A DNA stretch of 64,000 nucleotides, taken from contig CAJBBX010000027.1 of the NCBI GenBank assembly GCA_903951425.1, forward strand, positions 1 through 64,000. Reading direction: 5' to 3'. The position numbers and the translations under genes were made by a program. The notes under the pieces were generated by a model. That model had not been told where the DNA came from. It saw only the letters and a list, made by a program, of their open reading frames with translations, and did no database searches. The stretch comes from an uncultured Chthonomonas sp. Its GTDB lineage: Bacteria; Armatimonadota; Chthonomonadetes; Chthonomonadales; CAJBBX01. This document shows, in pieces, positions 32,052 to 34,219 of this stretch (position 1 is its first letter; each line of letters begins with the position of its first letter).

Positions 32052-32081
32052 TTGACATCCGAACGTACAGGGCGTTACAAT
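32052..32081 (+). promoter_or_regulatory. promoter of the ParA operon
   Basis: -35 TTGACA at 32052-32057 and -10 TACAAT at 32076-32081 with an 18-base spacer, about 50 bases before the first gene of the three-gene operon. Confidence 0.75.
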
Positions 32082-32134
32082 CACCCACCAGCCATGCCGC
32101 CGACCCGCGGAGCTAGGTGCGCCCGGATCACCCT

Positions 32135-32908
32135 ATGACCCTCCAATCGTTTGATTTTGACACTGAGTTTGCGTTACTCGACGTCGGCGCCACGGGTGAG
32201 TTCATCACCAGAGGTGGCCTGCGTCCCGGCGTTTTGGCCTACCGGGCCGACGGCGCCGTGCAAGCCCTCACGCTTGACGTGGAGCCGGGCGCAAGCCCCG
32301 CCCCTGCGGTCGACGGCGCCAGGCGATTCCTTCGCGACGGCGACCACGCAGCATACGCCTTCGTGGGCGAACTGACCCGGGTTAAGGAGGCCTACCATGT
32401 GGCAGCCGAGGTGGATCAGCGCTCGCGCGGATCCAACTATCTGGGCGTAGCGCTCTGCTGCCGTGGACGCTGGCGTACGCTCCTCTACCCCATCCGCCTT
32501 GCCAATGACCGGATATCGCTCGCATCGCCGCTGGAAGGCTCGACGCCGCCCGAGTGGTGCCCCATCGGCGATATCTGGGCCAACCCGTTTGTCGCCGACG
32601 ACCTCGTCCGGTTCGCCCCGCCGAACCGAGCCGTGCCGCCGGGCACGCCGCTCTGGCAGACCATCGTAGACCTGACCAAGCTGCGTATTGTGGCCGACCC
32701 GGCCAATGCGCAGGATTATCAGGTCTTCCTTGACGACCTTCGGACCGGCGTGTTCCTCGTCGCGGGCCGCTCGCCGGACGACCTCAACCGGGTGATCCTC
32801 AAGCCGCGGACGGTGTTCAACCCCATCGGGTCACTGGAAGCGCCCGCCGCCAAGCTTCTGCTGGTGAGCGCGTCGGCGCAGTCCGGGCCTGAGGGGCGCA
32901 TTGCATGA
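32135..32908 (+). CDS. unrecognised protein encoded upstream of ParA
   Basis: A 257-residue soluble protein that I do not recognise. No signal peptide, membrane helix or repeated motif is seen. The sequence alternates beta-type stretches with Pro-rich turns. Noticeable segments are EFALLDVGATGEFITRGG, AYHVAAEVDQRSRGSNYLG and PIGDIWANPF. ATG 32135 is used; a GTG at 32117 is possible and neither has a strong ribosome site. Its stop overlaps the parA start (ATGA). Strict coupling suggests it acts with the ATPase, perhaps as cargo adaptor or activator, but that is inference. Confidence 0.6.
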   Translation: MTLQSFDFDTEFALLDVGATGEFITRGGLRPGVLAYRADGAVQALTLDVEPGASPAPAVDGARRFLRDGDHAAYAFVGELTRVKEAYHVAAEVDQRSRGSNYLGVALCCRGRWRTLLYPIRLANDRISLASPLEGSTPPEWCPIGDIWANPFVADDLVRFAPPNRAVPPGTPLWQTIVDLTKLRIVADPANAQDYQVFLDDLRTGVFLVAGRSPDDLNRVILKPRTVFNPIGSLEAPAAKLLLVSASAQSGPEGRIA

Positions 32909-33678
32909 AGATCGTAGCCATCGTCAATCAGAAGGGCGGCGTCGCCAAGACGACCACCACGGCCAACCTGGGCGCCTGCCTTGCCGAGCGCGGTCAGCGA
33001 ACGCTGCTGATCGACCTCGATCCGCAGGCCAACTTGACCCTGGGCCTCGGCGTGGAGTGGTACAACCTCAACACGGCGCTACAGCATGTGCTCTACGACC
33101 ACGAGCAGACCCCGCTTGCATCCATCCTGCATCAGGTGGCCGACCTGCCGCTGATGCTGGCCCCTGGGCACCTCGACCTGGCCCATTGCGAATCCGTCCT
33201 GCTGCCGGCAGCCGATAAGGCATACCGCCTCCGCAATGCGCTGGAGGAGTTGGAGAAGGTCGACGAGTATGACTGGGTCCTCATTGACTGTCCGCCGTCG
33301 CTGGGGACGCTCACCCAGAACGCGATCGTCGCCTGCAGCCATCTGCTGATCCCCACCGAACCGAAGTACTACGCCTTTGCCGGTATGGACACGCTGAACA
33401 AGATGATCCTCGACCTGACGAAGAGCCTGCGGTTCCGGGTCGAGCTGTTGGGCGTGCTCCTGACCATGGTGGAGCGCGGCACCAAGCTGCACCAGACCAT
33501 CGCGACGGAGATCCGTGAGCGGTTCGGGGACAAGGTCTTCCAGACAGTGATCTACAAGAACGTGCGCGTCTCTGAGTCCGAAATCGAGGGCGTGCCCATC
33601 GCGCTCTTCGACCGCCGGGCCTCGGGAGCGCAGAACTACGAGTCGCTGGCCGAGGAGGTCCTCAGCCGTGCGAGTTGA
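32905..33678 (+). CDS. parA: ParA/MinD-family ATPase without adjacent ParB
   Basis: A 257-residue deviant-Walker ATPase. The Walker A is KGGVAKTTTT (residues 10-19) with the signature Lys10 and catalytic Lys15; Walker A' is LLIDLDPQAN and Walker B is WVLIDCPPSLG. IPTEPKYYAFAGMDTL is typical of ParA/Soj. Such proteins form dynamic gradients on DNA or membranes and move chromosomes, plasmids or large complexes. No ParB or parS-like repeat is next to it. It is sandwiched between two unrecognised coupled genes, so a cargo-positioning role is as likely as chromosome partitioning. Confidence 0.92.
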   Translation: MKIVAIVNQKGGVAKTTTTANLGACLAERGQRTLLIDLDPQANLTLGLGVEWYNLNTALQHVLYDHEQTPLASILHQVADLPLMLAPGHLDLAHCESVLLPAADKAYRLRNALEELEKVDEYDWVLIDCPPSLGTLTQNAIVACSHLLIPTEPKYYAFAGMDTLNKMILDLTKSLRFRVELLGVLLTMVERGTKLHQTIATEIRERFGDKVFQTVIYKNVRVSESEIEGVPIALFDRRASGAQNYESLAEEVLSRAS

Positions 33679-34219
33679 TAAGAGCGCCAACCTCCGCGAC
33701 CGCCTGAGGAAGGGCGCCGATGCCTTCTCGTTCGATGCCCTGCTCCAGGGCGTGTCGACCTTGGAGGGCGACGCCACGCCGATCGACGCCGATGCCGGCG
33801 GCATGGCCCAACAGGCTCCGCCGCCGAAGTCGCCTCCTCCGTGGGCCGTGCTCCCTGCCTCCCCGCCCGCGCCGACCAGCGGCGAGCAGTGGAAGGCCGC
33901 CATCGAGGGGCTCGCGCAGGGGCTGATGGAGAGCGCCGCGCAGTTCGGTGCGGCAGCGGAAGAGGACGACATTGCCGGGCAGGGGCAGGCTCTGGCCGAT
34001 GCCAACCGCGTGCTGGAGCTGCTTGGGTCGGTTGACCCGATCGGCGCCGTGGCACGTTCGGTGGGGGCGCCCAGTGCGCCACCGGGTGGGCGTCGGTGGC
34101 CTGAGCCAGCGTGGAGCGTCAGCGCCCTGGCTGCTTCGCCGCTCTCGGCGCTCACTGGTCCCGGCGCCACCGTCGCGCATCTCGACGCCATCTTGGAGGC
34201 TGCGCGCGCAGCCAGATAG
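33668..34219 (+). CDS. unrecognised protein coupled to ParA
   Basis: A 183-residue protein with GTG start 11 bases inside parA, behind a GGAGG site. It begins with a basic segment (MRVDKSANLRDRLRKG), followed by a Pro/Ala-rich linker (APPPKSPPP and similar) and a Glu/Ala/Leu-rich helical part (WKAAIEGLAQGLMESAAQFG). The basic N-terminus plus flexible linker is like the activating tails of ParA partners (ParB, TlpT), which have an Arg/Lys residue that triggers ATP hydrolysis. No helix-turn-helix or CTPase motif of ParB is visible. Function is unknown; the partner role is inference. Confidence 0.6.
   Translation: MRVDKSANLRDRLRKGADAFSFDALLQGVSTLEGDATPIDADAGGMAQQAPPPKSPPPWAVLPASPPAPTSGEQWKAAIEGLAQGLMESAAQFGAAAEEDDIAGQGQALADANRVLELLGSVDPIGAVARSVGAPSAPPGGRRWPEPAWSVSALAASPLSALTGPGATVAHLDAILEAARAAR

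Follow-up and report, generated by a model that had tools for sequence, protein, structure and literature searches.

In PpfA–TlpT and ParC–ParP, which position chemotaxis clusters, ParA is used for a protein cargo. Among the cargos of ParA/MinD ATPases are chromosomes, carboxysomes, chemosensory arrays, and division sites, and more than a third of bacteria encode several such ATPases (PMC10241942). The elements by which their partners activate the ATPase are usually short basic N-terminal peptides (PMC13170346, PMC12204374). In Myxococcus xanthus, the ParB peptide maps to a hydrophobic pocket of ParA formed by V116, L150, L152, L155, L187, and L192, while the arginine of this peptide maps to Y81, E82, D110, and E117 (PMC12462528).

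Here, we analyzed a 64-kb stretch of DNA (hereafter the window) from a Chthonomonadales (Armatimonadota) metagenome-assembled genome (6.08 Mb in 188 contigs), in which a ParA-type ATPase is encoded between two genes, g1 and g3, that match no described family. The reading that we favor, with moderate confidence, is that this trio forms a nucleoid-based ParA positioning module for a non-DNA cargo, with g3 as dedicated activator and g1 as second partner.

Organization of the Operon

The features of the locus are listed in table 1. Its coordinates confirm the tight three-gene operon described in an earlier note on this DNA: g1 and parA share an ATGA (32905–32908), and parA and g3 overlap by 11 bases (33668–33678). 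The operon also has the promoter of its own that had been proposed, which agrees with the consensus at 11 of 12 positions, is separated from the start of g1 by 53 bases, and is the single exact match to TTGACA-N15-19-TANAAT on either strand of the window, when 0.01 would be expected; in most of the other operon-bearing genomes, g1 is preceded by a similar TTGACA...TAnAAT box. An alternative GTG start at 32117 would lengthen g1 by 6 residues (263 aa), but a congener has it in another frame, and g1 thus likely begins with the ATG at 32135. Each of the three frames is a real gene, being conserved across 12–13 genomes with low omega within the genus. The operon is flanked by two tRNA-Ser genes, with a divergent low-molecular-weight phosphatase gene as upstream neighbor and, by sequence, a HAD-like hydrolase ORF downstream.

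Table 1. Features of the g1–parA–g3 locus, in window coordinates.
Feature	Position	Strand	Description
Sigma-70-type promoter, TTGACA-18-TACAAT	32052..32081	+	Comparable box 5' of g1 in relatives
g1	32135..32908	+	257 aa, putative second partner, scaffold, or cargo
parA	32905..33678	+	257 aa, ParA-type ATPase (AAA_31, E 2e-49)
g3	33668..34219	+	183 aa, putative ParA-activating adaptor
g3 residues 1–31, MRVDKSANLRDRLRKGADAFSFDALLQGVST	33668..33760	+	Conserved putative ParA-contact peptide
g3 residues 71–183	33878..34216	+	Conserved helical C-terminal domain, putative cargo- or g1-binding part

Distribution and Conservation of the Trio

The module is restricted to one lineage, a family of Chthonomonadales plus one genome of its sister family. 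Indeed, every one of the 12 family genomes has g1; of the two sister-family genomes, one has it, and the other is only 64% complete. As to the co-occurrence that the earlier note had proposed to check, the three genes stand together, in the identical order g1–ParA–g3, in all 13 genomes having g1 (in G003, g3 is interrupted by a contig end). Among the 291 genomes of the phylum that were searched, the profiles of g1 and g3 found nothing convincing in the other 278; weak matches to either (E 0.008–0.009) were short and were set aside.

Across genera, identity to the copy in the window amounts to 78–82% for ParA in most genomes (62–68% in the two most distant), about 35–48% for g1, and 30–46% for g3, a pattern that suggests a stable motor whose partners evolve faster. 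Between genomes, the identities of g1, ParA, and g3 are strongly correlated pairwise (r 0.80–0.97), as expected under joint vertical descent, and within the genus all three are under purifying selection, with omega at 0.02–0.06 for g1, 0.01–0.03 for ParA, and 0.11–0.14 for g3.

The genes flanking the trio vary from genus to genus, which indicates that it persists as a unit rather than as part of a larger cluster, and which also means that no function can be read from its gene context. A GH57 family gene, convergent with the trio, adjoins it in six genomes (L022:5162-6379; L023, L024, L027, L028, L029), and a tRNA-Ser(TGA) adjoins the GH57 gene or the operon in several. A mobile-element origin, at which the flanking tRNA-Ser genes had hinted, was rejected because the whole neighborhood is syntenic within the genus and because the presence of these tRNAs varies in other genera.

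A ParA with a Changed ParB-Docking Pocket

The ParA of the window has intact Walker motifs, as previously noted: like the ParA of ParABS systems, it has a deviant Walker A (NQKGGVAKTTT), a motif 2 (DLDPQAN), and a Walker B (LIDCPPS). Among solved structures, it is nearest to those of chromosomal ParAs (e.g., 8ray and 1wcv). By inspection, its C-terminus (...EEVLSRAS) carries no appended MinD-like membrane helix, and it scores below the cut-offs of the models for bacterial MinD (68.5 bits vs 212.9), the BcsQ equivalog TIGR03371 (87.9 vs 157.85), VirC1 PF07015 (21.5 vs 24), and the actinobacterial CpaE type TIGR03815 (20.5 vs 154.45); the broad PF06564, the BcsQ Pfam domain, passes on it as a distant relative.

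We mapped the M. xanthus ParA positions onto an alignment of the trio ParAs. These keep D110, L150, and L192 (M. xanthus numbering), while Y81 is replaced by H, Q, or N, and E117 by V, L, M, I, or K (mostly hydrophobic). T stands at L152 in all but one, which has V, and Q stands at L155 in all but one, which has T; L187 has given way to D, G, A, or R, and position V116 is occupied by S, A, T, V, F, or R. The catalytic D58, D60, and N64 are invariant, the DNA-contact position R238 is R or K, and the chromosomal ParA of the same genome retains the ParB-binding residues. Judging from this alignment, the trio ParA has lost its ParB-docking pocket and kept its catalytic and DNA-binding residues, as expected of a ParA that cycles on DNA but answers another activator.

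In the ParA tree (in which one very long outside branch was flagged as unreliable), the trio ParAs form a clade supported at 99/94 that includes one prophage ParA, and the chromosomal ParAs of the same order form a separate clade (98/96). In G007, a ParA sharing 65% identity with that of the trio (G007:C3, L047:6434-7219) is encoded within a prophage-like region, where it adjoins terminase- and portal-like ORFs and is accompanied by neither g1 nor g3. Another locus of G007 (C54, L082:8650-10732) encodes a MerR-type HTH fused to ParA; a ParB overlaps this fusion, a replication-initiator-like ORF comes next, and the whole is a plasmid-like partition locus.

Two Partners outside Known Families

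g3 looks like a ParA-activating adaptor by virtue of its layout. The arrangement that the earlier note had described, a basic N-terminal peptide, a Pro/Ala-rich linker, and a helical tail, fits the segment-wise conservation: mean pairwise column identity is 0.57 over residues 1–31 (0.62 over 9–31), falls to 0.16 in the variable linker, and reaches 0.41 in the C-terminal helical domain. Residues 1–31 are identical in three congeners. The basic character that had been ascribed to the N-terminus holds for the first ~20 residues, with 5–6 K/R against 2–3 D/E, but does not extend to the protein as a whole, which is acidic (pI 4.6). The C-terminal domain is modeled with block means of pLDDT of 87–97, the N-terminal helix with modest confidence (pLDDT 47–62). 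The peptide and the chromosomal ParB motif differ in spacing, which fits the changed pocket of the trio ParA, and it is on this pocket, together with the layout and its conservation, that our reading of g3 as a putative activator is based. A g3-like stretch (NGFSFDALMDGITTV) was found in a single-genome protein of G007 with one predicted membrane helix (L077:688-1794, minus strand; E 0.03); the other relatives searched had no homologue of it, and the resemblance is probably due to chance.

g1 is predicted to be an acidic and soluble alpha/beta protein (mean pLDDT 86.5, pTM 0.80). It has no match in Pfam, NCBIfam, PHROGs, PADLOC, or PDB chains, and g3 has none in these either, apart from scattered single-member noise in the first four. 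When the AlphaFold2 models of both proteins were compared to the PDB with Foldseek, nothing was found at E <= 0.001, and weak resemblances to FliS/MIT and Argonaute were accordingly dismissed. The earlier view of g1 as a protein of no recognizable domain thus stands, and the profile and structure searches suggested for both partners yielded neither a family nor a fold. The best conserved stretch of g1 spans residues 141–180, and its N-terminal helix is also conserved, which suggests that these parts may be binding surfaces; no histidine or cysteine is found among its invariant residues.

A System Probably Separate from Chromosome Partitioning

A complete chromosomal parA–parB pair is encoded on another contig (C59) of the same genome, and ParB was found in all 31 genomes compared. 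By contrast with such a pair, no ParB domain (ParB_N/HTH) was detected in g1, g3, or any of their homologues, and the 64 kb of the window, the surroundings of the operon included, contain no match to the parS sequence TGTTTCACGTGAAACA with up to 3 mismatches. A ParB domain in either partner, parS sites next to the operon, and the lack of a second parAB had been named in the earlier note as grounds against its reading, and none of these applies.

These observations bear on the rival explanation that the trio is a second DNA partition system, derived from a plasmid or prophage and fixed in the chromosome, with g1 or g3 as a non-canonical centromere-binding protein. Many plasmid partition systems have unrelated small partners with basic N-termini, and the sister ParA outside the trio sits in a prophage-like region of G007. 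However, g1 and g3 are acidic (pI 4.2–5.7) and matched no recognized DNA-binding domain in profile searches, the window holds no parS-like site, and no inverted or direct repeat upstream of the operon is shared between genomes. Moreover, the trio is vertically conserved across the family despite changing neighborhoods, no replication or mobility genes were noticed beside it, and g1 is missing from the 72,556 plasmids and from the viral contigs searched. We therefore regard a partition function as clearly unlikely.

Throughout the lineage, this ParA comes with one fixed pair of partners, of which one is activator-like, and it is therefore probable that some structure is positioned in these cells independently of the chromosomes. 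In the positioning module that we favor, ParA-ATP dimers would bind the nucleoid non-specifically, and the C-terminal helical domain of g3 would seat g3 on the cargo, so that its basic N-terminal peptide could touch the ParA dimer and elicit ATP hydrolysis and release; the cargo would then follow the moving ParA gradient. As second dedicated partner, g1 would most likely be a protein marking or scaffolding the cargo, engaged by g3 or by ParA. We infer all three of these roles, namely the activation of ParA by g3, the marking or building of the cargo by g1, and positioning itself.

Which Cargo?

The core of the earlier proposal, a ParA module that positions a cargo and does not partition the chromosome, is upheld by the lack of ParB and parS and by the second parAB, but its chemosensory example is not, as the genome of the window has no CheW. 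CheW (PF01584) is absent from 6 of the 13 operon-bearing genomes and YscJ/FliF (PF01514) from 7 of them, the genome of the window being included in both counts, and microcompartment shell genes (PF00936) were detected in none of the 31 genomes, when controls were. The genome of the window is thus devoid of CheW, FliF, and shell genes alike. In the neighborhood of the operon, nothing points to a secretion cargo either.

A second non-chromosomal ParA clade adjoins an ExeA-like AAA ATPase and small ORFs (L113, L114, L115). Its ParA occurs in exactly the five FliF-bearing members of the family (G004:C3, G005:C212, G008:C20, G007:C15, and G010:C141), so that flagellated members have another candidate for the flagellar job.

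Remaining cargo candidates include the division site, envelope machines, pili, and unknown bodies. By analogy with PomXYZ, our best guess, a tentative and somewhat doubtful one, would be an envelope or division-site complex. It is possible, albeit less likely than not, that the family as a whole has a new class of ParA positioning system, in which g3 would be the dedicated activator and g1 a cargo scaffold of new fold. Such a system would place a core structure, for instance an envelope machine or the division site, for which sister families rely on other means.

A rival explanation holds that the ParA positions a cell-envelope, polysaccharide, or secretion machine in the manner of BcsQ, VirC1, or TadZ. 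Polysaccharide-related genes are indeed frequent neighbors of the trio: glycosyltransferase-like and PIG-L genes occur in the window, glycosyltransferase-like genes lie near the trio in G008 and G010, and there is the GH57 gene of six genomes. Yet the models for the BcsQ equivalog, VirC1, and the CpaE homologue all stay below their cut-offs, and the neighboring genes differ between genera, which makes such a use quite improbable. As for the notion that the ParA serves a second, orphan ParB encoded without adjacent ParA in this genome (C59:17449), g1 and g3 being incidental, it is barely credible, given that this ParB lacks the N-terminal ParA-binding motif, that it also occurs in a family (f3) devoid of the trio ParA, and that the ParB pocket of the trio ParA is lost.

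Comparison with Known Systems

The cargos of ParA/MinD systems are usually inferred from gene context, and the context of the trio gives none; in a genome that lacks three of the usual protein cargos, the trio offers a concrete lead to a new class of cargo. With Soj/ParA–ParB, it shares the catalytic and DNA-binding residues of its ParA, but it has neither ParB nor parS, its docking residues are replaced, and a true parAB is found elsewhere in the genome. Its ParA may serve as a natural example of a ParB-docking surface exchanged for another partner. It resembles the carboxysome-positioning McdAB in combining ParA with a poorly conserved adaptor that bears a basic N-terminal peptide, and differs from it by the extra conserved partner g1 and by the lack of shell genes in the 31 genomes. 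Chemotaxis systems such as PpfA–TlpT and ParC–ParP are set apart by the six operon-bearing genomes without CheW, and FlhG and flagellar positioning by the PF01514 basal-body gene missing from the genome of the window and six others.

PomXYZ of M. xanthus is nearest in layout: each system has one DNA-binding ParA-type ATPase and two dedicated non-ParB partners (whose binding we infer in the present case), of which one has a basic N-terminal peptide that is activating in PomXYZ, and both are lineage-restricted. No sequence relation to PomXYZ was found. The helical domain of g3 is short (about 110 residues), and g1, a modeled alpha/beta protein of 257 residues without Pfam match, has none of the HEAT repeats and coiled coil of PomY. 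If, in the strongest form of the new-class reading, both partners acted on ParA, the trio would join PomXYZ as a second example of dual activation.
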